A DNA stretch of 64,000 bases from Clostridiaceae bacterium (GTDB taxonomy: Bacteria > Bacillota > Clostridia > Oscillospirales > Acutalibacteraceae). Positions 45,126 to 62,389 of this stretch are shown here, piece after piece. Each line of letters opens with the position of its first letter. Positions within the stretch are counted from its first letter, which is position 1. The stretch is taken from the NCBI GenBank assembly GCA_016287385.1, contig JAEEWM010000026.1, positions 62,001-126,000 of the forward strand, written 5' to 3'. The position numbers and the translations under genes were made by a program. The notes under the pieces were generated by a model. The model saw only the letters and a list, made by a program, of their open reading frames with translations, searched no databases and had not been told where the DNA came from.

Positions 45126-45154
45126 TTGACAAATCGGAATTGCGGTGATATAAT
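45126..45154 (+). promoter_or_regulatory. Promoter of T-box 1
   Basis: Perfect consensus TTGACA, 17-bp spacer, TATAAT. Confidence 0.92.
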
Positions 45155-45159
45155 CACCA

Positions 45160-45434
45160 CAAATAAAAAGGCTGTGACGAAGACGGTTTAAGATATTGTC
45201 TTTCAGAGAGTCGGCGGTTGGTGCAAGCCGATATTCAGTTTCTTAAGTTACCTATCACTTCCGAGCCGGTAGCCCGAAAAAGTGTTTTAGTAGACGCTAC
45301 CCGTGATTGCTGCGTGAAGGCATAGAGGTTGTTAGACCTTAAAGCGGTAAACCGTTACGGTTTGCAATTTGAGTGGTACCGCGGATGATTTATTCACCCG
45401 TCTCAAAGAAATTTGAGACGGGTGTTATTTTTTA
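45160..45434 (+). ncRNA. T-box leader 1, predicted isoleucine specifier (ATC)
   Basis: Stem I base GGCTGTGACGAAG pairs with CTTCCGAGCC. The distal AGAGAG loop is at 45205 and the apex holds GGTTGGTGCAAGCC. On the 3' side of the specifier loop, between the upper helix (GGT-TTAAGA / TCTTAA-ACC) and CTTCC, stands T-ATC-A (ATC at 45254-45256), an Ile codon. The T-box GAGTGGTACCGCGG is at 45371-45384; TGGT pairs with an ACCA tRNA end, as in tRNA-Ile. The terminator CACCCGTCTCAAA / TTTGAGACGGGTG plus T run is at 45395-45434. Uncharged tRNA-Ile should allow readthrough into the acyl-CoA synthetase gene. Confidence 0.9.
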
Positions 45435-45448
45435 TAAGGAGTGATAAA

Positions 45449-47719
45449 ATGGCTGTAAGTTCTGTCAACAAATTAAAGGAAATCGCTTTCCGAATTAAGG
45501 AAATGCGCGAAATCAGCGGTATTTCGGTTGAAGAAATGGCAAAGAAAACCGAAGTTAAGATTTCCGAATACACCGACTATGAAAGCGGTAAGCTTGATTT
45601 CCCCTTTACATTTATTCATAAGTGTTCTCAGGTTTTCGGAATAGGTATTACAGACCTGCTTGAAGGTGAAAGCGCGCACCTTTCATCATATACTGTTACC
45701 CGTAAGGGCATGGGACAGCCCACCGCCAAGGAAAGCGGCATCGAAATTCAGAATCTGGCGCCGTTTTTCGATAAGAAAATTGCCGAACCGTACTGGGTAA
45801 GATATTCCTTTGACCCGTCGCTTCAGGATAAGCCGATACATCTTACCAAGCATTCCGGTCAGGAGTTCGACCTTGTTTTGAGCGGCAGATTAAAGGTTCA
45901 GGTAGGCGAGCACACCGAAGTTCTTAATGAGGGCGACAGTATTTATTATAACAGCTCGACTCCTCACGGTATGATAGCCGTTGACGGCAGAGACTGCCTG
46001 TTTGCGGCAATAGTCATGCCCGGCGAGGAAAGTGAAAAAGATAAGATAATTGAGCCGTATATCTTCCCGCATAAAAGCCAACCGGGCGGTTATGTATCGT
46101 CAAAGTTTATTGATACCGTTGAGGATGACAAGGGCAGATTGCAGAAAATCTCGTTTAAGGATGAGGAAAAATTCAATTTTGCCTTTGATATAGTTGATGA
46201 GCTCGGCCGTAATAAGCCTCAGAAACTCGCAATGCTTCACATTGATAAGAATAAAGTTGAACGCCGTTTTACTTTCAGGGATATGAAGCGTTATTCGGCG
46301 CAAACGGCTAATTATTTCAAGTCCCTGGGCATTAAAAAAGGCGACCGTGTAATGCTCGTGTTGAAACGTCATTATCAGTTCTGGTTCAGTATACTGGCGC
46401 TTCACAAGCTCGGTGCTATAGCGATACCCGCGACAAATCTGCTGCAGGAGCACGATTTTGATTATCGCTTCAATTCCGCTGGCGTTTCGGCAATAGTATG
46501 CACGGCGGACGGCGAGGTTGCGGCTCATGCTGACGCGGCTATTGAGCATTCTCCCACTGTTAAGTTAAAAATTATGGTGGGCGGTTCCCGTGAGGGCTGG
46601 CATAACTTTGACGAGGAATTCGGACTTTACAGCGCCCACTATTACCGTGACGAGGATACCGCCTGCGGCAGTGACCCGATGGTGATGTTCTTTACCTCCG
46701 GCACAACGGGGTATCCGAAAATCGCGGTACATAATTATAAATACGCGCTCGGTCACTATATTACCGCTAAATACTGGCACGGCGTTGACCCCGACGGGTT
46801 GCACTTTACAATATCCGAGACCGGCTGGGGTAAGGCGCTTTGGGGCAAGCTCTACGGTCAGTGGCTATGTGAGGGAGCGGTATTTACCTATGATTTTGAC
46901 CGCTTCTCCGCAAGCGATATACTTCCGATGTTTAAGGAACATAATATAACCACGTTCTGCGCACCGCCTACAATGTTGCGTATGATGATAAAAGAAGATA
47001 TCTCAAAATACGATTTGTCCTCAATCAGGCATATGACAACGGCGGGCGAGGCGCTTAACCCGGAGGTATACCGGCAGTTTGAAAAAGCTACCGGACTTAA
47101 AATAATGGAGGGCTTCGGTCAGACCGAAACAACAATGACGCTCGGTAACCTCAGGGGCGCGCCCCATAAAATCGGATCTATGGGCAAACCCTCGCCGCTT
47201 TATGACGTTGATCTGCTCGACGCGGACGGCAACAGCGTACCGGTGGGTGAAACCGGTGAAATCGTCGTAAAAACTTCGGATCATATACCCTGCGGACTCT
47301 TTGACGGTTATTATAACGACCCGGAAAACACCGCACAGGTTTGGCACGACGGGTACTATCACACAGGCGATACCGCCTGGCGCGATGAGGACGGCTTTTA
47401 CTGGTATGTCGGCCGTGTCGACGACGTTATTAAATCTTCCGGCTACCGTATAGGACCGTTTGAGATAGAAAGCGTTATTATGGAGCTTCCGTACGTTCTT
47501 GAATGCGGCGTTTCAGCCGCGCCCGATCCGATACGCGGTCAGGTAGTGAAAGCAAGTATTGTCCTTGTAAAAGGCAAAGAGGGCAGTGAAGAACTTAAAA
47601 AAGAGATACAGGATTACGTAAAGTCAAAGACCGCGCCGTATAAATATCCGCGAATCGTGGTATTTCGTGACGAGCTGCCGAAAACAATCAGCGGTAAAAT
47701 TCAGCGTAATAAACTGTGA
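45449..47719 (+). CDS. XRE-cupin-acyl-CoA synthetase fusion, under Ile T-box
   Basis: 756 residues in three parts. Residues about 8-70 are an XRE helix-turn-helix (RIKEMREISGISVEEMAKKTEV) and about 115-195 a cupin_2 domain (HSGQEFDLVLSGRLKVQVGEH, STPHGMIAVDG). From about 235 comes an ANL-family acyl-CoA synthetase with FFTSGTTGYPKIA (about 415), GFGQTE, YHTGDTAWRDEDGFYWYVGRVDD and the catalytic lysine motif KTISGKIQR at the end. The ligase part resembles short/medium-chain (ACSM or propionyl/butyryl) synthetases. Because it is the only gene after an Ile-type T-box and stands beside a VOR and IlvE, I predict 2-methylbutyrate as substrate. ATG at 45449 follows AAGGAG. The C-terminal 130 residues are nearly identical to its neighbour at 48058. 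Confidence 0.85.
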   Translation: MAVSSVNKLKEIAFRIKEMREISGISVEEMAKKTEVKISEYTDYESGKLDFPFTFIHKCSQVFGIGITDLLEGESAHLSSYTVTRKGMGQPTAKESGIEIQNLAPFFDKKIAEPYWVRYSFDPSLQDKPIHLTKHSGQEFDLVLSGRLKVQVGEHTEVLNEGDSIYYNSSTPHGMIAVDGRDCLFAAIVMPGEESEKDKIIEPYIFPHKSQPGGYVSSKFIDTVEDDKGRLQKISFKDEEKFNFAFDIVDELGRNKPQKLAMLHIDKNKVERRFTFRDMKRYSAQTANYFKSLGIKKGDRVMLVLKRHYQFWFSILALHKLGAIAIPATNLLQEHDFDYRFNSAGVSAIVCTADGEVAAHADAAIEHSPTVKLKIMVGGSREGWHNFDEEFGLYSAHYYRDEDTACGSDPMVMFFTSGTTGYPKIAVHNYKYALGHYITAKYWHGVDPDGLHFTISETGWGKALWGKLYGQWLCEGAVFTYDFDRFSASDILPMFKEHNITTFCAPPTMLRMMIKEDISKYDLSSIRHMTTAGEALNPEVYRQFEKATGLKIMEGFGQTETTMTLGNLRGAPHKIGSMGKPSPLYDVDLLDADGNSVPVGETGEIVVKTSDHIPCGLFDGYYNDPENTAQVWHDGYYHTGDTAWRDEDGFYWYVGRVDDVIKSSGYRIGPFEIESVIMELPYVLECGVSAAPDPIRGQVVKASIVLVKGKEGSEELKKEIQDYVKSKTAPYKYPRIVVFRDELPKTISGKIQRNKL

Positions 47720-47726
47720 TTTCTTC

Positions 47727-47755
47727 TTGACAAATCAATACTTGTGTGCTAAAAT
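47727..47755 (+). promoter_or_regulatory. Promoter of T-box 2
   Basis: TTGACA, 17-bp spacer, TAAAAT, starting 7 bases after the previous stop codon. Confidence 0.9.
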
Positions 47756-47761
47756 GCTTTG

Positions 47762-48030
47762 TGTCAAAGGCGATGACGAAGAGGGCATAAGGCTCAAACT
47801 TCAAGAGAGCGGGCGGTTGGTGCGAGCCCGTAAGCGGACCCTTATGCTGTAACTTCCCAGCCGGAAGGAAGAAAGTCTTTATGATCAGTAGAACCTTCCC
47901 GTGATTGCTGCGTAAACGCATAGGAGTTTAACGACTTCGAGAGGTGGCGGCTAAAACCGCAATTTGAGTGGTACCGCGGGTATGAAATGTTACTCGTCTC
48001 AAAGTATTTTAACTTTGGGGCGAGTTTTCT
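47762..48030 (+). ncRNA. T-box leader 2, predicted valine specifier (GTA)
   Basis: GATGACGAAG at the 5' base pairs with CTTCCCAGCC. The upper helix GCATAAGG / CCTTATGC is perfect. Directly after it lies T-GTA-A before CTTCC, so the specifier is GTA (47849-47851), Val. AGAGAG is at 47804 and the apex holds GGTTGGTGCGAGCC. The T-box GAGTGGTACCGCGG is at 47966-47979 (TGGT, matching an ACCA acceptor end). The terminator ACTCGTCTCAAAG / CTTTGGGGCGAGT (13 pairs with G-T) plus T run is at 47992-48030. Confidence 0.9.
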
Positions 48031-48057
48031 GTTTAGCCCCCAAAGGGAGGTAATGTT

Positions 48058-50346
48058 TTGGAAAGAATGACAGGTCTTGATTACAAAATCCATGAAATGG
48101 CGGCAAGAATTAAGGAACTGCGTGAAATCGTAGGGCTTTCCGTTGCGGAAATGGCTGAAAAAACCGATGTTACCGAAAAGGATTATATCGCCGCGGAGAA
48201 CGGTAAAACCGACCTTAACTTTGCGTTTATTTACCGTTGCGCAAATGCCTTCGGCGTCGACGTGACCGATATTATTGAAGGTCACAGTCCCACGTTGCGC
48301 TCTTATACTCTTACCCGGCGCGGAGCGGGGCAGCGTATAGATAACGCGCACGGTATGACGTATTTTAACCTTGCGCCGGCTTTCAGAAAAAGAATTGCCG
48401 AACCGCTTTACGTCAAAAGCGTTTACAGCGAGGCGGCACAAAACCGCGCTATTGAGGTTACAACCCATAAGGGTCAGGAGTGCGATATAGTTATATCCGG
48501 TCACCTCAAAGTTCGCGTTGGCGATCACACCGAGGTTTTAGGACCCGGCGATACTATTTATTATGACAGTTCGACACCGCACGGTATGATAGCCGTAAAC
48601 GGTGAGGACTGCTACTTCTACGCAATTGTGCTTAACCCGACGGGCGACCCGATACCTGAATTATCCGGTGCTAACGAGCTTACCGCGGCTGAGCCGGTGA
48701 AATTTGATACCAAAAGACGGCTTTATCATCAGTTTATCGATATCGAAAAAAACGAAAACGGCACGCCGACCTCAATTAAATTCAAAAATGCCGATAAGTT
48801 CAATTTTGCTTTTGATATTGTCGACGGTTTAGCCGAAAAGGATCCGGACAAACTTGCCATGCTTTATATCGGCAAGGATAAATCGGAGCACAGATTTACC
48901 TTCAGCGATATGAAAAGGTCTTCGGCACGTTGTGCAAACTACTTTAAGTCGCTTGGCATTAAAAAAGGCGACAGGGTAATGCTCGTCCTTAAACGCCATT
49001 ATCAGTTCTGGTTTTGCATGCTTGCGCTTAATAAGCTCGGCGCTATCGCGATACCGGCTACAAATCAGCTTCAGGAGCATGACTTTGAATACCGTTTTAA
49101 TTCAGCCGGCGTTACGGCTATCGTCTGCACCGCGGACGGTGACACCGCGCATCAGGTTGATATAGCGGCAAAAAACTGTCCGACTCTTAAGCACAAGCTG
49201 ATCGTCAACGGCACCCGCGAGGGCTGGCGTGATTTCAACGCCGAGTATGAGGTATACCGCTCGCACTTTGAGCGTACGGATGATTCGCCCTGCGGTGACG
49301 ACCTTATGCTCATGTACTTTACCTCGGGCACGAGCGGCTATCCGAAAATCGCTACACACAACCACAAATATCCGCTCGGACATTTCCATACTGCAAAGTA
49401 TTGGCATAACGTGGATCCTGACGGTTTGCACTTTACGATTTCGGATACCGGATGGGCGAAGGCGATGTGGGGCAAGCTTTACGGACAATGGCTGTGTGAG
49501 GCGGCAACCTTCGTTTACGATTTTGACCGTTTTGACGCGGCGGACATACTGCCGATGTTCAAAAAGCATAATATTACTACCTTCTGCGCGCCGCCTACGA
49601 TGCTTCGTATGATGGTTAAGCAGGATATTTCAAAATACGATTTATCCTCAATTAAGCATATGACAACGGCTGGCGAGGCGCTTAACCCTGAGGTGTACAG
49701 GCAATTTAAGAAAGCGACCGGTCTTAGCATACTTGAGGGCTTCGGACAGACCGAGAGTACCATGATAATCGGCAATCTTCGCGGTGCGCCCCATAAGATC
49801 GGCTCAATGGGCAAACCGGCTCCGATATATGACGTGGATATTGTTGACCCCGACGGCAACAGTGTTCCTACGGGTGAGACCGGTGAAATTGTTATTAACA
49901 TCAAGAACGGTTTGCCGTGCGGGCTTGCGGTTGGTTATTACGGTGATGAGGAAAAGACGAACGAGACGTGGCGTGACGGACTTTATCACACCGGTGATAC
50001 CGCCTGGCGCGATGAGGACGGCTTTTACTGGTATGTCGGCCGTGTTGACGACGTTATCAAGTCATCCGGCTACCGTATAGGGCCGTTTGAGATAGAAAGC
50101 GTTATTATGGAGCTTCCGTACGTTCTTGAATGCGGCGTTTCAGCCGCGCCCGATCCGATACGCGGTCAAGTTGTAAAGGCAAGTATCGTTCTTGTTAAGG
50201 GCAAGGAAGGTACCGAGGAACTAAAAAAAGAGATACAGGATTACGTCAAATCCAAAACCGCGCCGTATAAGTATCCGCGAATTGTGGTATTCCGTGACGA
50301 ATTGCCAAAGACCATAAGCGGTAAAATTCAGCGCAACAAGCTTTAA
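48058..50346 (+). CDS. XRE-cupin-acyl-CoA synthetase fusion, under Val T-box
   Basis: 762 residues with the same architecture as the upstream paralogue: XRE domain (about 12-75, RIKELREIVGLSVAEMAEKTDV), cupin (about 118-200, THKGQECDIVISGHLKVRVGDH, STPHGMIAVNG) and acyl-CoA synthetase (YFTSGTSGYPKIA near 421, GFGQTE, KTISGKIQR). TTG at 48058 is the likely start because AGGGAGG lies 7 bases upstream; an ATG at 48067 is too far. It is the first gene of an operon with the 2-oxoacid:ferredoxin oxidoreductase and ilvE. The Val T-box makes isobutyrate the predicted substrate. The attached HTH and cupin suggest the enzyme may also sense a ligand and bind DNA, which is inference. Confidence 0.85.
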   Translation: MERMTGLDYKIHEMAARIKELREIVGLSVAEMAEKTDVTEKDYIAAENGKTDLNFAFIYRCANAFGVDVTDIIEGHSPTLRSYTLTRRGAGQRIDNAHGMTYFNLAPAFRKRIAEPLYVKSVYSEAAQNRAIEVTTHKGQECDIVISGHLKVRVGDHTEVLGPGDTIYYDSSTPHGMIAVNGEDCYFYAIVLNPTGDPIPELSGANELTAAEPVKFDTKRRLYHQFIDIEKNENGTPTSIKFKNADKFNFAFDIVDGLAEKDPDKLAMLYIGKDKSEHRFTFSDMKRSSARCANYFKSLGIKKGDRVMLVLKRHYQFWFCMLALNKLGAIAIPATNQLQEHDFEYRFNSAGVTAIVCTADGDTAHQVDIAAKNCPTLKHKLIVNGTREGWRDFNAEYEVYRSHFERTDDSPCGDDLMLMYFTSGTSGYPKIATHNHKYPLGHFHTAKYWHNVDPDGLHFTISDTGWAKAMWGKLYGQWLCEAATFVYDFDRFDAADILPMFKKHNITTFCAPPTMLRMMVKQDISKYDLSSIKHMTTAGEALNPEVYRQFKKATGLSILEGFGQTESTMIIGNLRGAPHKIGSMGKPAPIYDVDIVDPDGNSVPTGETGEIVINIKNGLPCGLAVGYYGDEEKTNETWRDGLYHTGDTAWRDEDGFYWYVGRVDDVIKSSGYRIGPFEIESVIMELPYVLECGVSAAPDPIRGQVVKASIVLVKGKEGTEELKKEIQDYVKSKTAPYKYPRIVVFRDELPKTISGKIQRNKL

Positions 50347-50357
50347 TCGGTGTTTTT

Positions 50358-51032
50358 ATGAAATATAAGCGAATAACTGTTGTTTGCGGCCATTACGGCA
50401 GCGGTAAGACGAATATCGCGCTCAATATGGCTTACGATCTAAAATCGGGCGGCAATGACGTAACAATCGCCGACCTTGATATTGTGAATCCGTATTTCCG
50501 CACGAAAGACAGCATTGATGAACTGAATGAGCGCGGTATAAGCCTTATTTGTTCCGAGTATGCCGGTACAAATCTTGATATACCGGCAATGCCCGATGAA
50601 ATGTATGCGATAACCGATGATTTAACGCGAAACTATGTGCTTGATATCGGCGGCGATGACCGCGGCGCGCTCGCGCTCGGCAGACTTGCTCCCAAAATCG
50701 TTTCGGAGAATAATTACAGCATGATAGCCGTCGTTAATATGTACAGACCGCTTACGCGCGACTGTGCCTCTACCGTACAGGTTCTGCGCGAAATCGAGTA
50801 CGCCGGCGGAATCGGCTTTACCGGGATAATTAACAATTCAAACCTCGGCGTTGATACTGCTGCAGGCGATGTACTGAATTCCGTCGCTTACGCAGATGAG
50901 ATTTCCGCGGCAATGAATATTCCGGTAATTGCAACCGCCGTCGATAAACGCTTAAAAGCCGAACTTGACGGAAAAATAAACGAATTGTTTTATATTGAAT
51001 TGCAAAATTCACTTGTGAATAAGGAGTGTTGA
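50358..51032 (+). CDS. MinD/ParA-like P-loop ATPase in the 2-oxoacid oxidoreductase operon
   Basis: 224 residues. The nucleotide site is VCGHYGSGKTNIALNMA (deviant Walker A) with VTIADLDIVNPYFRTKDS as the following strand and switch region; VLDIGGDDRGALALGRLA is a Walker B-like segment. It lies 11 bases after the acyl-CoA synthetase and 2 bases before the ferredoxin, so it belongs to the operon. SIMIBI ATPases of this type act in Fe-S cluster or cofactor insertion and in partitioning; a maturation role for the oxidoreductase is a reasonable guess. It has no CxxC pair for holding a cluster. Confidence 0.75.
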   Translation: MKYKRITVVCGHYGSGKTNIALNMAYDLKSGGNDVTIADLDIVNPYFRTKDSIDELNERGISLICSEYAGTNLDIPAMPDEMYAITDDLTRNYVLDIGGDDRGALALGRLAPKIVSENNYSMIAVVNMYRPLTRDCASTVQVLREIEYAGGIGFTGIINNSNLGVDTAAGDVLNSVAYADEISAAMNIPVIATAVDKRLKAELDGKINELFYIELQNSLVNKEC

Positions 51033-51034
51033 AT

Positions 51035-51241
51035 ATGCCAAAACTGACATTCAAAACCGATCTCTGCAAGGGCTGCGGGCTGTGCGTAGACGTCTGCCCG
51101 AAGAAAGTGCTTGCGCTATCGGCGGACAAAATTAACAAAAAGGGACATCACCCGGCAGAAGCGGTAAATCCCGACGACTGTATCGGCTGCGCCTTCTGCG
51201 CGACGATGTGTCCCGACTGTATTATCAAGGTGGAAAGGTAG
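51035..51241 (+). CDS. 2-oxoacid:ferredoxin oxidoreductase delta subunit (2[4Fe-4S] ferredoxin)
   Basis: 68 residues. Two cluster motifs: CKGCGLCVDVCPKK and CIGCAFCATMCPDC. This subunit carries electrons between the TPP subunit and free ferredoxin. ATG at 51035 follows AAGGAG by 8 bases. It sits first in the order delta-alpha-beta-gamma, common to KOR/VOR complexes. Confidence 0.92.
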   Translation: MPKLTFKTDLCKGCGLCVDVCPKKVLALSADKINKKGHHPAEAVNPDDCIGCAFCATMCPDCIIKVER

Positions 51242-51249
51242 GGTGTAAA

Positions 51250-52317
51250 ATGGCAGATAAGGTTCTTATGAAAGGCAACGAGGCTATAGCTGAGGCGGCT
51301 ATAATCGCCGGTTGCCGTCACTACTTCGGTTATCCGATTACGCCGCAGACCGAGGTCGCCGCATATATGGCGAAGAAAATGCCCAAGATCGGCGGCACGT
51401 TCCTGCAAGCGGAAAGCGAGATTGCCGCAATTAACATGGTTTACGGTGTGTCAAGCGCGGGCAAGCGTGTTATGACATCTTCTTCAAGCCCCGGTATTTC
51501 GCTTAAAAGCGAGGGACTCTCGTATCTTGCCGGCGCCGACCTTCCCGCGTTCGTTGTAAACGTTCAAAGGGGCGGTCCGGGTCTCGGCGGCATTCAGCCT
51601 TCACAGTCCGATTATTTTCAGGCGACGCGCGGCGGCGGTCACGGCGATTATCATATGGTGGTCTACGCGCCGGCTTCTGTTCAGGAAATGGCGTCGCTTA
51701 CTGTCAAGGCCTTTGAGACGGCTGATAAATACCGTATGACTTCAATGATTCTTGCCGACGGCACAATGGGTCAGATGATGGAGCCGGTTGACCTTGAATC
51801 CCTTAAAGTTAATCCGGCGCCCGAAAAACCCTGGGCAACCACCGGAACCGATAAAAAGCGTGAACATAACATAATCAATTCGCTTTACCTTAAACCCGAA
51901 CAGCTTGAAAAAGTGAACTTTGAGCGCTATGAGCGTTATAAAACCGTTGAGGCGAACGAGGTTATGTATGAGGAATACCTTATGGATGACGCCGAGATTT
52001 GCGTAGCGGCATTCGGTATTGCCGCCCGCGTTTCAAAAAACGCAATTAACGCGGCAAGGGAAAAGGGTATTAAAGTAGGTATGATCCGTCCGATAACTCT
52101 TTGGCCTTTCCCGAAGGATGTTTTTAAGAATGCCGCCGAAAAGGTACACACATTCATCAGCGTTGAACTTTCAATGGGTCAGATGATTGAGGACGTAAAG
52201 CTCGCGACAGAATGCAAGGCAAAATATGTGCTTTGCAACAGAGTCGGCGGTATGATACCGTTACCCGAGCAGGTCCTCGCCGATATTGAAGAAGCCGCGA
52301 AAGGAGGCGAGCTGTAA
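51250..52317 (+). CDS. 2-oxoacid:ferredoxin oxidoreductase alpha subunit (VorB/KorA type)
   Basis: 355 residues. It contains the pyrimidine-binding domain (GNEAIAEAAIIAGCRHYFGYPITPQTE) and the transketolase-like C-terminal domain (FGIAARVSKNAINAAREKGIKVGMIRPITLWPFP). QAESEIAAINMVYGVSSAGKRVMTSSSSPGIS is the family's conserved loop. The complex interconverts 2-oxoacid + CoA with acyl-CoA + CO2 using ferredoxin. Paralogues for 2-oxoglutarate and for branched 2-oxoacids look alike; the neighbouring branched-chain aminotransferase and the Val T-box favour branched-chain substrates. It abuts the beta gene by a one-base overlap. Confidence 0.9.
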   Translation: MADKVLMKGNEAIAEAAIIAGCRHYFGYPITPQTEVAAYMAKKMPKIGGTFLQAESEIAAINMVYGVSSAGKRVMTSSSSPGISLKSEGLSYLAGADLPAFVVNVQRGGPGLGGIQPSQSDYFQATRGGGHGDYHMVVYAPASVQEMASLTVKAFETADKYRMTSMILADGTMGQMMEPVDLESLKVNPAPEKPWATTGTDKKREHNIINSLYLKPEQLEKVNFERYERYKTVEANEVMYEEYLMDDAEICVAAFGIAARVSKNAINAAREKGIKVGMIRPITLWPFPKDVFKNAAEKVHTFISVELSMGQMIEDVKLATECKAKYVLCNRVGGMIPLPEQVLADIEEAAKGGEL

Positions 52318-53072
52318 TGGTAGTGTTTGATAAACCGAAAGCACTTGCGGATGTGCCGCTGCACTATTGTCCCGGCTGTACGCACGGCATAGTTCACAGA
52401 CTCGTCGCCGAGGCGATCGATGAGTTTGATATCGAGGGCAGGACCATAGGTATAGCTCCGGTCGGCTGCTCGGTTATGGCGTACGATTATTTTAACTGCG
52501 ATATGATAGAAGCGGCTCACGGCAGAGCGCCGGCTGTTGCTACCGGCGTTAAGCGTGCCGACCCGAGCAAGATAGTGTTTACATATCAGGGTGACGGCGA
52601 CCTTGCGTCGATAGGTATGGCTGAAACGGTTCACGCCGCCGCGAGAAATGAAAACATCACCGTAATATTTATAAATAACGCCATATACGGTATGACAGGC
52701 GGTCAGATGGCGCCGACATCACTTCCCGGTCAGGTAACGCAGACTTCGCCTTACGGCAGAGACGTAAAGCTTTGCGGTTTTCCGGTAAAGGTATGTGAAA
52801 TGCTCTCGCGTCTTGACGGCGCCGAGTACATCGAGCGCGTCGCCGTAAATAACATAAAGAACATTAACGCGGCGAAAAAAGCAATTAAAAAAGCGTTTCA
52901 GAATCAGATTGAAGGCAAAGGCTTTTCGCTTATTGAAGTAATTTCAAGTTGTCCTACCAACTGGGGTCTTACTCCGCAGAACGCTCTTAAATGGATAGAT
53001 GAAAAAATGATTCCTTACTATCCGCTCGGCGTTTATAAAGACAGGTCGGCAGAGGGGGTACGTTTAGTATGA
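52317..53072 (+). CDS. 2-oxoacid:ferredoxin oxidoreductase beta subunit (TPP-binding)
   Basis: 251 residues. Holds thiamine pyrophosphate and magnesium: YQGDGDLASIGMAETVHAA (GDG) through NNAIYGMTGGQMAPTS is the TPP motif. PLHYCPGCTHGIVHRL supplies cysteines near the start. It overlaps the gamma gene by four bases. Part of the same four-subunit complex and operon. Confidence 0.93.
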   Translation: MVVFDKPKALADVPLHYCPGCTHGIVHRLVAEAIDEFDIEGRTIGIAPVGCSVMAYDYFNCDMIEAAHGRAPAVATGVKRADPSKIVFTYQGDGDLASIGMAETVHAAARNENITVIFINNAIYGMTGGQMAPTSLPGQVTQTSPYGRDVKLCGFPVKVCEMLSRLDGAEYIERVAVNNIKNINAAKKAIKKAFQNQIEGKGFSLIEVISSCPTNWGLTPQNALKWIDEKMIPYYPLGVYKDRSAEGVRLV

Positions 53073-53602
53073 AAACCACACAGTATTTATTTGCCGGTTT
53101 TGGCGGTCAGGGTATTCTCTTTGCCGGAAAATTTGCCGCATATAAAGGTCTTATCGAAGATAAGCAGGTAAGCTGGCTTCCGTCCTACGGACCCGAAATG
53201 CGCGGGGGGACTGCGAGCTGCAGTGTTATTATCGGCGACGAGCCGGTAGGTTCTCCGATAGTTTCAAGACCGGACGTACTTATAGCTATGAACCTGCCTT
53301 CACTGGACAGATACGAGGACAGCGTAGTTCCCGGCGGTATGATTTTTGCCGATTCTTCACTTATAGAGCGTAAAGTTAACCGTACCGACGTCAAGGTGTT
53401 CTACATACCTGCCACAAAGCTTGCCGACGAAAACGGTATCGGCAAACTCGCCAATATGATAATCGTTGGCAAAATACTCAAAGAGAGAAATGAGTATAAC
53501 GAAGAGTCGGTAGTAGCGGCGCTTAAAAAAGTTGTTTCCGCAAAGCACGCGGATATGCTTGATATCAACCTTAAAGCGATTAAGGTAGGGTTTGAAAACT
53601 AA
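53069..53602 (+). CDS. 2-oxoacid:ferredoxin oxidoreductase gamma subunit
   Basis: 177 residues. Signatures of the gamma domain: [21 protein letters not shown] and [30 protein letters not shown]. It binds the CoA side of the reaction in the complex. It ends 12 bases before ilvE. Confidence 0.93.
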
Positions 53603-53614
53603 GGAGGTATTTTA

Positions 53615-54679
53615 ATGAATATTACCGTAAAACTTACTGATAATCCGAAAACCAAGCCGGATAGCTCCGTGCTCGGCTTCGGCAAATACTTTACAGACCA
53701 TATGTTCATTATGGATTACGTTGAGGGTGAGGGCTGGAAGAACGCGCGCATAGTGCCGTTCCAGAATATTTCGCTTCATCCGGCTTCGACCGTTCTTCAT
53801 TACGGCTCGGAGATTTTTGAGGGTCTTAAAGCGTATCGCCGCGCAGACGGCAGAGTTCAGCTTTTCAGACCTATGGAAAACATCCGCCGTATGAATCGCT
53901 CGGCAGACCGTATGTGCTTACCGCAGATACCGGAGGATGACGCGCTCGAAGCGCTCACAAAGTTTGTTGAAACAGAAAAGGACTGGACGCCTTCAGCTCC
54001 CGGCACGTCTCTCTATCTTCGCCCGTTTATGTTCGGCAACGACGAGTCGCTCGGTGTGCACTCGGTAAAGAACGTTACATATGTTATAATAGCGTCGCCT
54101 GTCGGCAGTTACTATAAAGAGGGCATTAACCCCGTAAGCATTATGATCGAGTCCGAAGACGTACGTGCCGTTCGAGGCGGCACCGGTGAGGCAAAATGCG
54201 GCGGTAACTACGCGGCGAGCAACCGCGCCGGCAAGCGTGCCGAGGATAAGGGATATTCACAGGTTCTCTGGCTTGACGGTGTTGAGCGCAAGTATATTGA
54301 AGAAGTCGGCGCAATGAACGTAATGTTCAAAATCGACGGCGTAATCGTAACTCCCGCGCTGCTCGGCTCAATCCTGCCCGGCATTACGCGCAAATCGTGT
54401 ATTGAAGTGTTAAAGGGCGAGGGATATAAGGTTGAGGAAAGAAGAATCAGCGTTGACGAACTTGAAGAAGCCCTCGAAAGCGGCAAACTTGAAGAGGCAT
54501 GGGGCTGCGGCACGGCGGCTGTTGTTTCACCGATCGGCGAACTGAATTACAAGGATAAAAAGTTCATTATCAACGACGGTAAAATCGGCGAAGTTACACA
54601 GCACCTTTATGATACCCTTACCGGTATTCAGTGGGGCAAAACCGAGGATAAATTCGGTTGGACCTACATGATCGGTTAA
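53615..54679 (+). CDS. ilvE: Branched-chain amino acid aminotransferase
   Basis: 354 residues, the long bacterial/eukaryote-like class IV BCAT. It interconverts Val, Ile, Leu and their 2-oxoacids with glutamate. HYGSEIFEGLKAYR, GTGEAKCGGNYAASNRAGK (the PLP lysine is in AKCGGNY), VLWLDGVERKYIEEVGAMNVMF and GTAAVVSPIG are the family motifs. AAGGAGG precedes the start. Being last in the Val T-box operon, it links the ferredoxin-dependent oxidoreductase to amino acid production. Confidence 0.95.
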   Translation: MNITVKLTDNPKTKPDSSVLGFGKYFTDHMFIMDYVEGEGWKNARIVPFQNISLHPASTVLHYGSEIFEGLKAYRRADGRVQLFRPMENIRRMNRSADRMCLPQIPEDDALEALTKFVETEKDWTPSAPGTSLYLRPFMFGNDESLGVHSVKNVTYVIIASPVGSYYKEGINPVSIMIESEDVRAVRGGTGEAKCGGNYAASNRAGKRAEDKGYSQVLWLDGVERKYIEEVGAMNVMFKIDGVIVTPALLGSILPGITRKSCIEVLKGEGYKVEERRISVDELEEALESGKLEEAWGCGTAAVVSPIGELNYKDKKFIINDGKIGEVTQHLYDTLTGIQWGKTEDKFGWTYMIG

Positions 54680-54686
54680 AAAACAC

Positions 54687-54715
54687 TTGCAAATTCAAAA
54701 GTATTGTGCTATACT
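54687..54715 (+). promoter_or_regulatory. Promoter of T-box 3
   Basis: TTGCAA, 17-bp spacer, TATACT, eight bases after the ilvE stop. Confidence 0.75.
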
Positions 54716-54721
54716 ACCTTT

Positions 54722-54989
54722 TGTTAAATGCGACGAAGGAACTATTTTTCGTAAAAAACGCTTTAAGAGAGTCGGCGTTCGGTGCAAGCTGATAGCGGTT
54801 TTGCGGAAAAGTCTCATTCCCGAGCAGAGTCTCTGAAAGCAGTAAGAGATTACGGCATGCTCCGTTATCATGGCAAAGGGCTTATTTGAGCCTTCCGAGT
54901 GGCAGATTTCTTTCTGCAATCGGGGTGGTACCGCGAATTTTATTCGTCCCCGAAGCCGGATTTCCGGCTTCGGGGACTATTATTTTTTA
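54722..54989 (+). ncRNA. T-box leader 3, predicted leucine specifier (CTC)
   Basis: Stem I base TGCGACGAAGG pairs toward TTCCCGAGCA. The upper helix TTTTTCGT / GCGGAAAA with AAAAAACGC / GCGGTTTT leads to AGAGAG at 54766 and an apex GTTCGGTGCAAGC. After GCGGAAAAG stands T-CTC-A then TTCCC, so the specifier is CTC (54813-54815), Leu. The T-box GGGGTGGTACCGCG is at 54922-54935 (TGGT). The terminator TCCCCGAAGCCGG / CCGGCTTCGGGGA plus T run is at 54947-54989. Confidence 0.9.
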
Positions 54990-55002
54990 GTGAGGTATTT
55001 TT

Positions 55003-56385
55003 ATGAAAAAAGTAATCGTTGCTGACACTACACTCCACCGCAACGCCGCCGGCTTCGGCTTTAACGAGAGTATCGAAATCGCGCGTCAGCTTGAAAAGCT
55101 GAACGTTGATATCATTGAACTGCCCGCGGTAGTAAACGAGGCAAAGGACGTACTTCTCATTAAAACTATCGCGTCTTTTGTCAAGTCTTCGGTGCTTTCT
55201 GTTGACGGCGGAACTACGGTCGCTCAGATCTCTGTTGCGGCAGGCGCCATATCAACCGCGCAAAACGGGAGAATCAGGATTTCCTTACCGACTTCCGACG
55301 TTGGAATGGAATACGGTTTTCATAAAAAGGGTCCGGCAATGGTTAAGCTTGCGGCGGAGCTTGTTTGCGCCGCGGCGGAAAAATGCGGCGACGTTGAATT
55401 CTGTGCGCTTGACGCGACGCGTGCTGATATGAGCACACTAGTTGAAATAATAAAAGCGGTTGTATCTGCCGGCGCAAAAACCGTTTCGCTTTATGATAAC
55501 GAGGGAATATTCTTCCCGGATGAAATGTCTGATTTTGTGTCCGGGGTGCGTGACGGCGCACAAATTGGCGAGGATGTTAAGATAGGCATTTGCTGTTCTG
55601 ATATTACCGGTATGGCTGCGGCTTCATCCTTTACAGTTATAAGAAACGGCGCCGACCTCATTAAAACCGGCGTGGACAGCGGCATTACCGAGCTTAAAAC
55701 CGCTATCCAGATTTTACGCACGTGCAAGTTCCACAGCGCCCTTCAAACCGGCATTGATTTTACTTCGTCGGGGCGCATTATTTCCCGCATCGAATGGATA
55801 ATCGGCGACAGGGAAAACTGCGCTGCCGAAGCGCAAGGCAACAGCGCCGGGTTCGTGCTTGACAGCAACGACGGCATTGAGGCCGTGACAGCCGCGGTGC
55901 TTAAACTCGGCTACGACCTGTCCGAAGACGATATTAAAAAGGTATATGAGGAATTCAAGCGAATTGCCGCAAAAAAGAACGTTTCGGAAAAGGAAATGGA
56001 GGCAATTATTGCTTCGAGCGCGCTTCAGGTGCCGCCAACGTATACACTTGAACAGTATTCGATCCAGTCGGGTAATATCATGACTTCATCCGCGCAGATA
56101 AATATGACTAAGGACGGCGCGACTGTTACGGGTATTTCTGTCGGCGACGGTCCGATTGACGCGGCGTTTCGCACTATTGAGCAGATAACCGGCAGGCATT
56201 TTGAGCTTGATGATTTCCAGATTCAGGCAATTACCGAAGGTCATGAAGCCATGGGCAGCGCGGTTGTTAAGCTTCGCGCCGGCGGCAAATCATATTCGGG
56301 AAAAGGACTGTCTACCGATATTATCGGTGCGAGCATACGCGCTTACATCAGCGCTCTTAACAAGATTCTTTACGAGGAGGCGTAA
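55003..56385 (+). CDS. LeuA-like protein with degenerate catalytic site and intact leucine-binding domain
   Basis: 460 residues. The N-terminal TIM barrel (about 1-270) belongs to the HMGL/2-isopropylmalate synthase family, but the usual DTTLRDGEQ loop is DTTLHRNAAGFGF and the metal-binding H-x-H-N-D segment is ICCSDITGMA. The catalytic Arg and both His ligands are therefore missing. The C-terminal LeuA dimer domain (about 345-458) is well kept: GDGPIDAAFRTIEQI, AITEGHEAMGSAVV and GKGLSTDIIGASIRAYISALN. It is first after the Leu T-box. It is most likely a leucine sensor or an enzyme of changed chemistry, not a working isopropylmalate synthase. Confidence 0.8.
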   Translation: MKKVIVADTTLHRNAAGFGFNESIEIARQLEKLNVDIIELPAVVNEAKDVLLIKTIASFVKSSVLSVDGGTTVAQISVAAGAISTAQNGRIRISLPTSDVGMEYGFHKKGPAMVKLAAELVCAAAEKCGDVEFCALDATRADMSTLVEIIKAVVSAGAKTVSLYDNEGIFFPDEMSDFVSGVRDGAQIGEDVKIGICCSDITGMAAASSFTVIRNGADLIKTGVDSGITELKTAIQILRTCKFHSALQTGIDFTSSGRIISRIEWIIGDRENCAAEAQGNSAGFVLDSNDGIEAVTAAVLKLGYDLSEDDIKKVYEEFKRIAAKKNVSEKEMEAIIASSALQVPPTYTLEQYSIQSGNIMTSSAQINMTKDGATVTGISVGDGPIDAAFRTIEQITGRHFELDDFQIQAITEGHEAMGSAVVKLRAGGKSYSGKGLSTDIIGASIRAYISALNKILYEEA

Positions 56386-56388
56386 ACT

Positions 56389-58902
56389 ATGAAGTTCGCT
56401 TTTTCAAGCAAGGGTTGGCATGACGCGAGTTTTGACGATATGATAAATATCGCCAAAGAGTTGAAATATGACGGAATTGAACTCCACAATACTCACGGTT
56501 CGCTCTTTACGGAAAAAGACGGCGCTTTTTACGATTACAAGTCCGCCGCCACGGCGCGCAAGCTTTACGAAATCAAATTGAAAATACCGTGTGTTGATTC
56601 AATTTGCAAAACAGGTGACAGCGCCGATTTTGATAACAGTGTAGATGAAATCAGGCACTGCATTACGATAGCGTCTGCGCTTCATATCCCGTATGTAAGG
56701 GTCAAAACCGACGATAACGGCGACGAAATCAGCGTTAAAGCGGTTATTGACGAGGTTTTGCCGTTTGCCAAGGCAAACAAAGTTACACTGCTTATTGAAA
56801 CCTGCGGCATTTTTGCCGATACGGCGAAACTTTGTGATTTTCTGAATTACTTTGCCACTGATTACGTCGCGGCGCTCTGGAATGTCAGCGCTACCTGCTT
56901 CTTCGGCGGAGAAACGCCGGAGGAGACAATCACAAATCTCGGCATCTACGTCAGACACGTCCATATTTGTGACGGTGTGTTAAACGGCGGTAAACTTGAT
57001 TATTGCCTGATAGGCGAGGGAAAACTTCCGATTTCCGATGTCATGGCGTCGCTCAAATCAATTAACTATGACGGTTTTATTTCGCTCGAATGGGATCCCG
57101 CCTGGTTCAGTGAGCTTGACGATATGGAGATAATCTTTTCGCATTTTATCAACTTTATGCGTCAGTTCGGCGATACCGCAAAGGCAAAAAGCAGTCTGTA
57201 TTACAATAACGCTCATACCGGAAATTATGTATGGAAAAAAGAATTGCTTATTGAAAATACTTTTCCTCAGGTACTTGACCGCATGGTAGAGGAATTCCCT
57301 GACCAGTATGCCTTTAAGTATACCACGCTTGATTATACGCGCACTTACAGTGAATTCCGTGACGATGTCGATACTTTTGCGCGCACGCTTGTCGCGCTCG
57401 GTGTAAAGCGCGGTACTCATGTTGCGGTATGGGCTACCAACATACCTCAGTGGTATATAACTTTCTGGGCGGCGACTAAAATCGGCGCGGTGCTTGTAAC
57501 GGTCAATACCGCTTATAAAATACACGAGGCGGAGTATCTCTTCAAGCAGTCAGACACACACACTATCGTTATGATAGACGGTTACCGAGATTCCGATTAT
57601 TCGGCAATTATATCGGAGCTTTGTCCCGAACTTGAAACGAAAAAACCGAACGAGCCGCTTTTCAGCAAGCGCCTGCCGTTTTTAAGAAACGTTATAACCG
57701 TAGGATTTGAGCAAAAAGGCTGTATCAAGTGGGAGGACGCTATCGGACTTGCAAACTCCGTACCTGTTGAAACGGTATACAAAATGGCGGCTGAAGTTGA
57801 TAAAGACGACGTCTGCAATATGCAATACACCTCCGGCACAACCGGCTTTCCGAAAGGCGTTATGCTTACGCATTACAACGTGGTAAACAACGGTAAATGT
57901 ATCGGTGACAGAATGGATCTTTCGACAGCCGACCGTATGATGGTTCAGGTGCCGATGTTCCACTGCTTCGGAATGGTTCTTGCCATGACCGCCTCAATGA
58001 CGCACGGCGTGACGCTTTGTCCGCTTCCGTACTTTTCTCCGAAGCCCGCGCTTGCGTGTATAAATTCCGAGCATATTACGGCGTTTCACGGCGTTCCCAC
58101 GATGTTTATAGCGCTGCTTGAACACCCCGATTTTGCGAAGACCGACTTTTCGTATATGCGAACGGGTATTATGGCGGGTAGTCCTTGCCCCATTTCGGTT
58201 ATGCGTGATGTTGTGGATAGGATGAATATGCGCGAAATCGTTATAGTTTACGGCCAGACCGAGGCGTCGCCCGGATGTACTATGAGTTCTACCGACGATC
58301 CGCTTGAAGTGCGTGTCGGCACCGTCGGCGGTCCAATGCCTGAAATCGAGTGTAAAATAGTTGACCCCGAGACCGGCGCTGAGTGTCCCGATGAAGTGAC
58401 GGGCGAATTTGTCGCGCGCGGCTACAATATTATGAAGGGTTATTATAAAATGCCGAAGGCGACCGCCGCCGCCATTGACGCGGACGGCTGGCTTCACACC
58501 GGCGATCTCGCTTGCAGAACGCCGGAAGGCAATTTCCGTATTACCGGGCGCCTTAAAGATATGATAATCCGCGGCGGCGAAAATATTTATCCCAAGGAAA
58601 TTGAGGAGTTTATCTATACTCATGAAAAAGTTAAAGACGTTCAGGTCATCGGCGTGCCCGACGAGCAGTACGGTGAGGAAATATTCGCCGCGGTAATACT
58701 CAAAGACGGCGAGAGTATGACCGAAGACGAACTTAAACAGTACGTTATGTCGCATATGGCGAAGCATAAGGTTCCGAGATATGTTGATTTCGTGGATTCG
58801 TTCCCGATGAACGTCGCGGGTAAAATTCTTAAATATAAAATGCGCGAGGATGCGATAAAGAAACTGCACCTCGAAAAAGCAGACAGTACGGTGACAGCAT
58901 AA
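56389..58902 (+). CDS. Xylose-isomerase-like TIM barrel fused to acyl-CoA ligase
   Basis: 837 residues. Residues about 1-270 are an AP-endonuclease-2/sugar-isomerase TIM barrel: YDGIELHNTHG, LLIETCG, RHVHICDG and ISLEWDP keep the Glu and His positions. The usual W-D-x-x-H is W-N-V-S-A, so metal binding may be impaired. Residues about 300-830 are a long/medium-chain acyl-CoA ligase with YTSGTTGFPKGVMLTH (about 481), YGQTEASP, WLHTGDLACR, IIRGGENIYPKEIE and the lysine motif NVAGKILKYKM. The fusion is unusual. Under a Leu T-box, isovalerate is the predicted acid. It starts 3 bases after the LeuA-like stop. Confidence 0.85.
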   Translation: MKFAFSSKGWHDASFDDMINIAKELKYDGIELHNTHGSLFTEKDGAFYDYKSAATARKLYEIKLKIPCVDSICKTGDSADFDNSVDEIRHCITIASALHIPYVRVKTDDNGDEISVKAVIDEVLPFAKANKVTLLIETCGIFADTAKLCDFLNYFATDYVAALWNVSATCFFGGETPEETITNLGIYVRHVHICDGVLNGGKLDYCLIGEGKLPISDVMASLKSINYDGFISLEWDPAWFSELDDMEIIFSHFINFMRQFGDTAKAKSSLYYNNAHTGNYVWKKELLIENTFPQVLDRMVEEFPDQYAFKYTTLDYTRTYSEFRDDVDTFARTLVALGVKRGTHVAVWATNIPQWYITFWAATKIGAVLVTVNTAYKIHEAEYLFKQSDTHTIVMIDGYRDSDYSAIISELCPELETKKPNEPLFSKRLPFLRNVITVGFEQKGCIKWEDAIGLANSVPVETVYKMAAEVDKDDVCNMQYTSGTTGFPKGVMLTHYNVVNNGKCIGDRMDLSTADRMMVQVPMFHCFGMVLAMTASMTHGVTLCPLPYFSPKPALACINSEHITAFHGVPTMFIALLEHPDFAKTDFSYMRTGIMAGSPCPISVMRDVVDRMNMREIVIVYGQTEASPGCTMSSTDDPLEVRVGTVGGPMPEIECKIVDPETGAECPDEVTGEFVARGYNIMKGYYKMPKATAAAIDADGWLHTGDLACRTPEGNFRITGRLKDMIIRGGENIYPKEIEEFIYTHEKVKDVQVIGVPDEQYGEEIFAAVILKDGESMTEDELKQYVMSHMAKHKVPRYVDFVDSFPMNVAGKILKYKMREDAIKKLHLEKADSTVTA

Positions 58903-59711
58903 TGGTAAACGGAAAATTTTATTGTATTGACGCGCACTGCCACGTCTATCCCGAACAAATTGCCGAAAAAGCGGCAAAGGCAACCGGTGATTTTTACGGT
59001 GAGATGCCCTTCGGAAAGGGCACAATCGCTGATTTGACTGAAAACGGCAAAAAAGCCGGGATTGACAGGTTTATTGTCCAGTCGGTAGCTACGACGAAAG
59101 CCCAGGTACGTAAAATCAACGAGTTTATCGCCCGGGAGGTAGAGGCGCATCCCGATACTCTTATCGGGCTTGGAACAATGCACCCCGAGTCCGATGATAT
59201 CGAGGCGGATTTTGAACACCTTAAATCACTCGGACTTCACGGCGTTAAGCTTCATCCCGATATTCAAGGGTTCAAAATCGACGATTACCGCTGCCTGAAA
59301 ATGTATGAGCTATGCGAGCGTGACGGTCTGCCGGTGCTTCTTCATACCGGTGATTATCGCTATGATTTTTCGAATCCGAACCGCCTTATACCCATACTTG
59401 AAATATATACCGGTCTTACGGTGATAGGCGCGCATTTCGGCGGCTGGTCGATATGGGACGAAGCATCAAAGAAACTTGCGGATATGCCGAATCTGGTTGT
59501 AGACTGCTCTTCAAGTCTTTCATACATAAAGCCGGAGCTTGCGGCTGAAATAATAAACAGATACGGTACCGACCGCGTTCTTTTCGGTACGGATTATCCG
59601 CTGCACTCACCGGTCAATGAAATGAATATTCTGCTGTCGCTCGGGTTTAGCGACGAAGATTACAAAAAAATATTTTCAGAGAACGCAAAGCGGGTTTACA
59701 AAATCGTCTGA
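58902..59711 (+). CDS. Amidohydrolase-family (Amidohydro_2) metal-dependent hydrolase
   Basis: 269 residues. A TIM-barrel hydrolase or decarboxylase: CIDAHCHVYP (H-x-H), GVKLHPDIQGF, VLLHTGDY, VIGAHFGGW and VLFGTDYPLHSP are the metal and substrate loops. It overlaps the preceding stop by one base (TAATG), so it belongs to the Leu T-box operon. Relatives act on aromatic or lactone-like acids, but nothing specific can be said. How it helps a leucine-responsive operon is unclear. Confidence 0.8.
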   Translation: MVNGKFYCIDAHCHVYPEQIAEKAAKATGDFYGEMPFGKGTIADLTENGKKAGIDRFIVQSVATTKAQVRKINEFIAREVEAHPDTLIGLGTMHPESDDIEADFEHLKSLGLHGVKLHPDIQGFKIDDYRCLKMYELCERDGLPVLLHTGDYRYDFSNPNRLIPILEIYTGLTVIGAHFGGWSIWDEASKKLADMPNLVVDCSSSLSYIKPELAAEIINRYGTDRVLFGTDYPLHSPVNEMNILLSLGFSDEDYKKIFSENAKRVYKIV

Positions 59712-61114: not shown

Positions 61115-62389
61115 ATGATAAAAAGAGATTTGTACCTAAACCGCATTATCAAATCAATGTGGAACGGCGAAGTCAAAGTTATAACCGGTATCCGCAGATG
61201 CGGTAAATCTGTTTTGCTCTTTAATTTGTTTTATGATTACCTTGTCGAGCAAGGCGCTGCCGAGGATCAAATCATCAAAATCGAGTTGGATCAAAGGAAA
61301 AATTATAAATTCAGAAACCCGATTACACTTTGCGAACATGTTGAGTCGATCGTTAAAGCAGATAAAAACAAAAGGTTTTATCTTTTCATCGATGAAGTTC
61401 AGTTGACAATCAAAGTTGTTGACAATGAAAACGGTGGTATAGAAGTCACTATCTACGACATGCTGAACGAACTGAAAGCGTATGAAAACCTTGACGTGTA
61501 CGTGACCGGCAGTAACTCAAAGGGGTTATCAAAGGACATCGCGACAGAATTTCGCGGCAGAGCGACCCAAATCCACGTTTTCCCGCTATCATTTGCCGAA
61601 TACTATTCGGCTGTTGGAGGTGACGAGCGACGCGCTTTGGACGACTATATGCTTTACGGAGGGCTCCCAAAGGTAGTTTCACTACCTGATGACAGAGAGA
61701 AAAAAGCCTATCTCTCTGGACTGTTTGATGAATTGTACGTCAAAGACATCATAGAGCGTAACAAAATCGAACGTGAGGATATTCTGAATGACATTCTCGA
61801 TTTTGTTGCTTCCCAAATCAGTTCTCTAACTAACCCGACAAATATCGCAAATGCGCTGACAAGCATCAAAAACGAAAAGGTCAATTCTGCGCTGGTATCT
61901 GCGTATATCAAGCATATCATCGATTCTTTCTTAGTTGATGAAGCGCGCCGATATGACATCAAAGGAAAAACCTATTTCAAGTACCCTAATAAATATTATT
62001 ACACCGATATCGGACTTCGCAACGCAAGGCTGAATTATCGGCAATTTGATCCAGGACACATAATGGAAAACATCGTTTATAACGAACTCGTCCGTCGCGG
62101 GTGGTCGGTCGACATCGGCGTTGTTTCGGATAGGTCAGACAATCGCAACGTTCAGAAAGAGATAGACTTTGTTGTCAACGATGCAGACCGGCGAATCTAT
62201 ATTCAATCTGCGCTGCAGATTAATACCGAAGAAAAGAGCAACGCAGAACTGCAATCGCTCCTTCTGACCAAGGATTTCTTCAAAAAGATTGTGATTCGGC
62301 AAGATATTCCACATTCACATTATGACGATAATGGCATTTATCACATCAATCTGATCGACTTTCTGCTTGGAAAAGTTGAACTGTTTTAA
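61115..62389 (+). CDS. AAA_14/DUF4143 ATPase
   Basis: 424 residues. P-loop VITGIRRCGKSVLLFNLFYDYL (about 22-43), Walker B FYLFIDEVQ (about 90-98), and sensor-like VTGSNSKGL in the AAA_14 domain. Residues about 200-400 are DUF4143 with MLYGGLPKVVSL, YYTDIGLRNA, ENIVYNELVRRGW and KEIDFVV, which resembles a PD-(D/E)XK nuclease core. These proteins are common as accessory genes in anaerobes and archaea and are of unknown role. Codon use is visibly less GC-rich than in the genes to the left. It has its own promoter and terminator. Confidence 0.88.
   Translation: MIKRDLYLNRIIKSMWNGEVKVITGIRRCGKSVLLFNLFYDYLVEQGAAEDQIIKIELDQRKNYKFRNPITLCEHVESIVKADKNKRFYLFIDEVQLTIKVVDNENGGIEVTIYDMLNELKAYENLDVYVTGSNSKGLSKDIATEFRGRATQIHVFPLSFAEYYSAVGGDERRALDDYMLYGGLPKVVSLPDDREKKAYLSGLFDELYVKDIIERNKIEREDILNDILDFVASQISSLTNPTNIANALTSIKNEKVNSALVSAYIKHIIDSFLVDEARRYDIKGKTYFKYPNKYYYTDIGLRNARLNYRQFDPGHIMENIVYNELVRRGWSVDIGVVSDRSDNRNVQKEIDFVVNDADRRIYIQSALQINTEEKSNAELQSLLLTKDFFKKIVIRQDIPHSHYDDNGIYHINLIDFLLGKVELF

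Follow-up and report, generated by a model that had tools for sequence, protein, structure and literature searches.

A T-Box-Controlled Gene Set Predicted to Assimilate Branched-Chain Acids in Place of Classical Ilv/Leu Biosynthesis in Uncultured Clostridia

Introduction

It has long been observed that rumen bacteria need isobutyrate, 2-methylbutyrate and isovalerate, and their physiology includes a route in which branched short-chain acids are reductively carboxylated to give valine, isoleucine and leucine. A 1984 paper by Allison reportedly concerns, by its title, an alternative biosynthesis of leucine. The genes and the control behind this need are believed to be poorly defined so far. Authors working on Prevotella bryantii describe the conversion of branched acids to amino acids as "not proven yet", although theoretically possible via a ferredoxin oxidoreductase (PMC7709123). 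This article deals with three consecutive T-box operons for Ile, Val and Leu in the window, that is, the whole stretch of 64,000 nucleotides analysed (positions 62,001 to 126,000 of contig JAEEWM010000026.1, Clostridiaceae bacterium, assembly GCA_016287385.1). These operons probably make up a regulon for the assimilation of branched acids in place of ilv/leu biosynthesis, with ligase substrates and a reductive direction predicted from gene content, kinship and distribution.

The route proposed shares with rumen reductive carboxylation the overall course from acid to coenzyme A (CoA) ester, 2-oxoacid and amino acid, but the window holds a defined gene set for it, in which each amino acid has a ligase and, in most cases, a T-box of its own. 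As for the Ile and Val ligases, MbcS and MacsMa provide the nearest NCBIfam model and the nearest solved structure (3ETC), and their substrates match those expected for these two enzymes. In contrast to them, the Ile and Val ligases carry an N-terminal helix-turn-helix (HTH)–cupin part, lie under T-box control and would serve amino acid rather than lipid synthesis. LeuA has its barrel fold and its C-terminal LeuA_dimer domain in common with psLeuA, the isopropylmalate-synthase homologue of the Leu operon, whereas psLeuA is devoid of the catalytic Asp and of the first metal-binding His, and the genome of the window (G000, 99.97% complete) has no leuB or leuC over the cut-off. Finally, leader architecture and control logic are those of the usual T-box operons for amino acid biosynthesis, but the targets are acid-activating ligases and a shared oxidoreductase. 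The earlier note on this DNA, made from the sequence alone, had stated that such a regulon is, to its author's knowledge, not described; the open-access literature gave no link of T-boxes to branched-acid assimilation among the matches listed, which for some queries were a small part of all hits.

T-Box Leaders and Specifier Codons

T-box leaders switch genes on at starvation. Three of them had been placed in a row by the earlier note, each ahead of an acyl-CoA ligase or its operon, with specifiers assigned to Ile, Val and Leu. All three were recovered with the Rfam model RF00230 (gathering score 93 bits; Table 1), the second one with an E-value of 4.1e-18 in a search of the whole genome. The specifier, taken as the triplet one base 5´ of the specifier-loop stem and read from the sequence, agrees with the assignment in each leader, and the same three amino acids are specified across relatives, with the exceptions given below. 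A ligase is encoded in all three operons, but the first gene of the Leu operon is a LeuA homologue and not a ligase.

Table 1. Features of the three T-box operons, in coordinates of the window.
Feature	Position	Strand	Evidence and remarks
T-box leader 1, specifier AUC (Ile)	45165..45408	+	RF00230 95.0 bits, above gathering score; AUC also in orthologous leaders
Ile-module ligase	45449..47719	+	HTH (HTH_19/HTH_3), Cupin_2, AMP-binding, AMP-binding_C; predicted 2-methylbutyrate–CoA ligase
T-box leader 2, specifier GUA (Val)	47764..48004	+	RF00230 81.1 bits, below gathering score; GUA in orthologous leaders
Val-module ligase	48058..50346	+	HTH–cupin–ligase architecture as in the Ile-module ligase; predicted isobutyrate–CoA ligase; falls in GUA-leader group
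P-loop NTPase (CbiA/ParA-like)	50358..51032	+	Also conserved in many relatives, with the ligase on one side and the ferredoxin subunit on the other
2-Oxoacid:ferredoxin oxidoreductase delta subunit	51026..51241	+	4Fe-4S (Fer4) motifs
VorB, alpha subunit	51250..52317	+	NF005507 539.9 bits, cut-off 399
Oxidoreductase beta subunit (thiamine pyrophosphate-binding)	52317..53072	+	PF02775; best NCBIfam model below its cut-off
Oxidoreductase gamma subunit	53069..53602	+	PF01558; best NCBIfam model below its cut-off
Branched-chain aminotransferase IlvE (type II)	53615..54679	+	TIGR01123 409.9 bits, cut-off 250.05
T-box leader 3, specifier CUC (Leu)	54724..54954	+	RF00230 122.2 bits; CUC or CUG in orthologous leaders
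psLeuA, isopropylmalate-synthase homologue with LeuA_dimer	55003..56385	+	PF08502 E 6.2e-33; no catalytic Arg-Asp, no His-x-His
TIM-barrel (AP_endonuc_2-like)–AMP-binding fusion	56389..58902	+	Predicted isovalerate–CoA ligase; best NCBIfam model NF009233, below cut-off
Amidohydro_2 family protein	58902..59711	+	After the TIM-barrel-ligase in many, not all, relatives; no evident pathway role

The same specifier rule, applied by eye to the five further T-boxes of G000, fits the downstream gene in all five. UUC, UGG, AAC, ACC and AUC precede genes identified by NCBIfam as pheS, a TrpB-like enzyme, asnS, thrS and ileS, in that order; for ileS, the piece is truncated and stays under its NCBIfam cut-off. 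The T-box with UGG (Trp) ahead of the TrpB-like gene is located at G000:C2:155271-155518 (L003).

For 76 HTH–cupin-fused ligases, the window's two included, 68 leaders were read after removal of one duplicate GUA row, comprising 41 AUC, 26 GUA and a single CUC. Three of the 76 are internal genes of an operon and have no separate leader; no T-box was found at five others (L105, L109, L198, L201 and L203; L105 was not rescanned with Rfam). The regular-expression scan for T-boxes had overlooked the leaders of L074, L082, L104, L110 and L206, which were recovered by eye or with Rfam. The sole CUC-read leader belongs to G029 (L099), where LigI, LigV, the P-loop open reading frame (ORF), the oxidoreductase, psLeuA and the TIM-barrel-ligase follow one another in one array behind a single CUC T-box; the gap between the ligases is too short for a Val leader, and the stretch examined contains no IlvE match. 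In G088 and G250 (L209 and L210), both fused ligases are found behind one AUC leader, with no T-box candidate before the second ligase.

Ahead of psLeuA, 23 leaders were read in the G genomes, 22 of them with CUC and one with CUG. This was extended by a scan of named genomes, for which the figures cover the 80 best psLeuA loci, all from records titled metagenome-assembled genome (MAG) or uncultured; most names are Clostridia-type or Ruminococcus-type, and a ruminant or horse is named in 48 of the 80 titles. A strict T-box motif (one mismatch allowed, 480 bases upstream) is present in 59 of these loci, against 0.85 of 80 in shuffled sequence, and the specifiers of the 59 aligned leaders are all Leu (CUC 52, CUG 7).

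Loss of the Classical Genes and Complementary Distribution

The absence of the classical pathway, another point on which the earlier note can be judged, is seen in the genome of the window, as G000 contains no match to ilvC or ilvD and no match over the cut-off to leuA, leuB or leuC. The match to the leuC model falls in a frame of 650 residues, the length of an aconitase. Next to this frame, as for isocitrate dehydrogenase, is the match to the leuB model (129.9 bits; cut-off 353.2). With the leuA model, whose cut-off of 598.7 bits is reached by no match in G000, psLeuA is hit in two pieces; the further hits are a frame of 459 residues that belongs to the same aconitase cluster (108.4 bits) and a weak one of 31.9 bits. 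Members of the genus with leuB carry a leuA-type match of 171–214 bits, also below the cut-off, which is absent from G000. The psLeuA query misses such leuA-type frames in genomes with leuB, and the presence of leuA was therefore judged with the leuA model.

Relatives that have the modules tend to be without ilvC and leuB, and the synteny of the modules is conserved, as the earlier note had envisaged. Among the 37 genomes of the genus, where ligase matches cut by a contig end were counted as fused, fused ligases occur in 29 of the 30 genomes without ilvC and in one of the seven with it. The order-wide set comprises 217 genomes, of which 216 reach 90% completeness or more and do not exceed 5% contamination, and its count excludes matches with in-frame stops or cut by a contig end. 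There, ilvC is found in 1 of the 18 genomes that have two or more full-length fused ligases, in 17 of 51 with one and in 106 of 148 with none. Fifteen of the 17 genomes that combine ilvC with a single fused ligase were examined, revealing 12 AUC leaders, no GUA leader and three cases in which no T-box was found; ilvC-keeping genomes thus mostly do without the Val ligase.

In a 60-genome set of relatives, used to compare leuB, leuC, leuA and psLeuA, leuB is present in 1 of 33 genomes with psLeuA and in 18 of 27 without it. An explanation of the Leu module by ilvC only was tested against leuB and discarded, because five of the six genomes with just one of the two genes follow leuB. G050, with ilvC and no leuB, has psLeuA, and G040 (55% complete only), G053, G057 and G059, with leuB and no ilvC, do not; the exception is G037, which has ilvC, no leuB and no psLeuA.

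Ligases and Oxidoreductase of the Ile and Val Modules

The HTH–cupin fusions are, together with the TIM-barrel fusion and the apparently dead LeuA homologue of the Leu module, findings that go beyond the earlier note. HTH and cupin are conserved, yet below the ligase part in both leader groups: mean pairwise identity is 0.73 for the HTH, 0.77 for the cupin and 0.82 for the ligase part across 26 GUA-leader rows, and 0.58, 0.65 and 0.75, respectively, across 36 AUC-leader rows. In a tree of the 76 fused ligases, made by a quick method with a midpoint root and with part of the leader labels (late-read ones) not yet included, the GUA-leader ligases are found to one side of a branch that has an SH-aLRT (Shimodaira–Hasegawa-like approximate likelihood ratio test) of 100; this side holds 29 rows, 26 GUA and three "operon".

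Against the MbcS equivalog NF047394, the Ile and Val ligases of the window score 426.9 and 435.1 bits. Their filing as MbcS was rejected, as both scores are far under the curated cut-off of 850. The nearest solved structure to the Ile ligase, MacsMa 3ETC, is an enzyme that prefers 2-methylbutyrate as a substrate (PMC10455477). MbcS from S. aureus is described as activating 2-methylbutyrate and isobutyrate, and isovalerate poorly (PMC10026030). The Ile and Val ligases are related to these proven 2-methylbutyrate/isobutyrate ligases and would be expected to act on the same acids. As far as genomics reaches, this resemblance sustains the earlier proposal of one ligase per branched acid, and the poor use of isovalerate by MbcS agrees with the Leu module having a ligase from a different family.

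Inspection by eye of part of the aligned leaders showed no operator for the HTH domain, and no systematic operator search was made. In G037, G051, G057, G046:C2 and others, the HTH–cupin part and the ligase were matched through an in-frame stop, a pattern for which two adjacent genes, an unfused form, are a possible explanation. The start of the Ile ligase of the window is probably the ATG at 45449, and not the TTG at 45413 of the listed ORF; the ribosome-binding-site-like sequence AAGGAG precedes the former.

In the Val operon, the four-subunit 2-oxoacid:ferredoxin oxidoreductase and the IlvE named in the earlier note are both found. The oxidoreductase is of the Vor type, with all four subunits (alpha, beta, gamma and delta) present; VorB and IlvE exceed their curated cut-offs, and the other subunits are recognized by Pfam models or motifs.

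psLeuA and the TIM-Barrel-Ligase of the Leu Module

The psLeuA protein of the window has neither the Arg-Asp of the LRDG motif, which we take to be catalytic in LeuA, nor the two His of the HCHND motif, whose His-x-His presumably binds the metal. The gap and the replaced residues are visible in the alignment to solved isopropylmalate synthases. Across 32 psLeuA sequences, the catalytic Asp and the first metal-binding His are retained in none, the Arg in three (L068, L070 and L071) and the second His in one (L057). With 278.9 bits against the LeuA equivalog (cut-off 532), psLeuA misses the curated cut-off, and this, combined with the loss of the catalytic residues, led to the rejection of its filing as an isopropylmalate synthase. 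A Foldseek search with the psLeuA model leads to the isopropylmalate synthases 6e1j, 3fig and 3eeg, and the barrel superposes well (3eeg, root-mean-square deviation (rmsd) 1.7 over 271 columns). When the LeuA_dimer part alone was compared with the PDB by phmmer, the hits were weak (3f6g, E 0.86).

The TIM-barrel-ligase is located downstream of psLeuA in all 80 loci, at 5–212 bases, and within 60 bases in 75 of them. Its barrel does not keep the metal ligands of the xylose-isomerase-like family PF01261. These ligands, assumed to be Glu/Asp/His/Glu and assigned to columns 137, 165, 192 and 234, vary among 18 sequences; of the four, three are retained in the window protein, which has Asn at 165.

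We propose, with chances that we regard as about even, that psLeuA is a leucine-sensing partner or regulatory subunit of the TIM-barrel-fused isovalerate–CoA ligase, kept from the lost leucine pathway. The best conserved part of psLeuA is LeuA_dimer, with a mean pairwise identity of 0.67 versus 0.42 for the barrel (21 sequences). A competing explanation, possible although rather doubtful, is that psLeuA, instead of acting as a sensor, catalyses a new reaction that needs no metal or serves only as a structural scaffold. The invariant barrel residues (Met102-Glu103-Tyr104, His107, Lys109, Asp137 and Arg140) speak for an enzyme or scaffold, whereas the faster divergence of the barrel relative to the regulatory domain and the free variation at the catalytic and metal positions speak against it.

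If psLeuA is a leucine sensor, the leucine route would be under two controls, tRNA charging via the T-box and free leucine via psLeuA. The feedback part of the lost leucine pathway would then have been kept and re-used when the pyruvate route was given up, and the regulatory domain of a dead enzyme may have been re-used in this way.

Proposed Mechanism and Alternative Explanations

According to the mechanism proposed, uncharged tRNA-Ile, -Val or -Leu would cause the matching T-box to let transcription through to one AMP-forming ligase, and each ligase would activate the matching acid (2-methylbutyrate, isobutyrate or isovalerate) to its CoA ester. The shared oxidoreductase of the Val operon, driven by reduced ferredoxin, would carboxylate the CoA ester to the 2-oxoacid, which IlvE would transaminate to the amino acid. 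psLeuA, presumably no longer making isopropylmalate, might bind the TIM-barrel-ligase and exert leucine feedback on isovalerate activation, and the HTH–cupin part of the Ile and Val ligases might have an analogous sensory or regulatory role. What the sequences show directly is the RNA elements with their codons, the gene content, the absence of the ilv/leu genes and the complementary distribution, the lost catalytic residues and the pairing in 80 of 80 loci; substrates, reductive direction and feedback are inferred.

Two other uses of the same enzymes have to be weighed against this assimilation regulon. The CoA esters might prime branched-chain membrane lipids, a role that the related MbcS has in Staphylococcus (PMC10026030). 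As an account of the present locus this is improbable, given the amino-acid-specific T-box ahead of each module, the fact that the Val ligase, the oxidoreductase and IlvE are encoded in a single operon, and a search for the classical genes that gave none over the cut-off. Amino acid and lipid use of the CoA esters could nevertheless go side by side. Stickland-type degradation, with IlvE, the oxidoreductase and the ligases running towards branched acids, is a very improbable reading. Other anaerobes do use the same enzyme types that way, and both the transaminase and the oxidoreductase can work in either direction. However, AMP-forming ligases use up ATP, T-box leaders turn genes on at starvation, ilvC is seldom found together with two fused ligases or leuB together with psLeuA, and most of the relatives read show a separate specifier for each module. 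These points support the preference of the earlier note for synthesis.

Several observations weigh against the assimilation regulon or narrow it. Regarding its RNA part, tRNA-Val(UAC) and tRNA-Leu(GAG) are present in G000, but the 41 tRNA hits of this genome do not include tRNA-Ile(GAU). The strict T-box motif was not found within 480 bases upstream in 21 of the 80 psLeuA loci, two of which are cut by the contig end; in several of the 21, psLeuA comes after IlvE, possibly as part of the Val operon. Nor does every relative have a leader for each module (G029, G088 and G250).

As for the distribution, the Fisher tests of the modules versus ilvC and leuB ignore kinship. Both ligases coexist with ilvC in G114 (order set) and G009 (genus set), and G009 also has psLeuA, leuB and ilvD beside the regulon, which would be due to genuine redundancy or else to a mixture of contigs (170 contigs and 2% contamination). 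Moreover, 8 of the 60 genomes are without ilvC, leuB and psLeuA. Among these, G005 and G017 are 57% and 79% complete; in G036, a leuA-type frame adjoins a leuC fragment (short leuC frames being our own call); G039, G051 and G055 have leuA over the cut-off with no ilvC or leuB over the cut-off; and G041 and G046 stay unexplained. The leuC model exceeds its cut-off in none of the 60 genomes, so that frame length alone separates leuC from aconitase.

At the protein level, the distance of the ligase scores from the MbcS cut-off means that substrates are assigned by kinship only. The psLeuA model, well superposed on the barrel alone, superposes on full-length LeuA at an rmsd of 13 Å or more (for 3fig, the leucine-bound LeuA of M. 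tuberculosis, 13.3 over 538 columns with 15% identity), and its predicted template modelling score (pTM) of 0.59 makes the mutual placement of the domains unsure. Leucine binding by psLeuA is predicted from domain homology.

With these points taken into account, the locus offers a complete, testable gene set for branched-acid assimilation in which the T-box specifier labels the amino acid of each ligase. The hosts are uncultured Clostridia, many of them from herbivore guts, and the regulon predicts which members rely on branched acids released by others.

Further Features of the Val Operon

The P-loop protein encoded between the Val ligase and the delta subunit perhaps serves iron-sulfur delivery. 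Finally, VorB presumably starts at 51250, whereas the listed ORF begins with a GTG at 51208; the later start was preferred because the matches of many relatives begin at residue 13–15.

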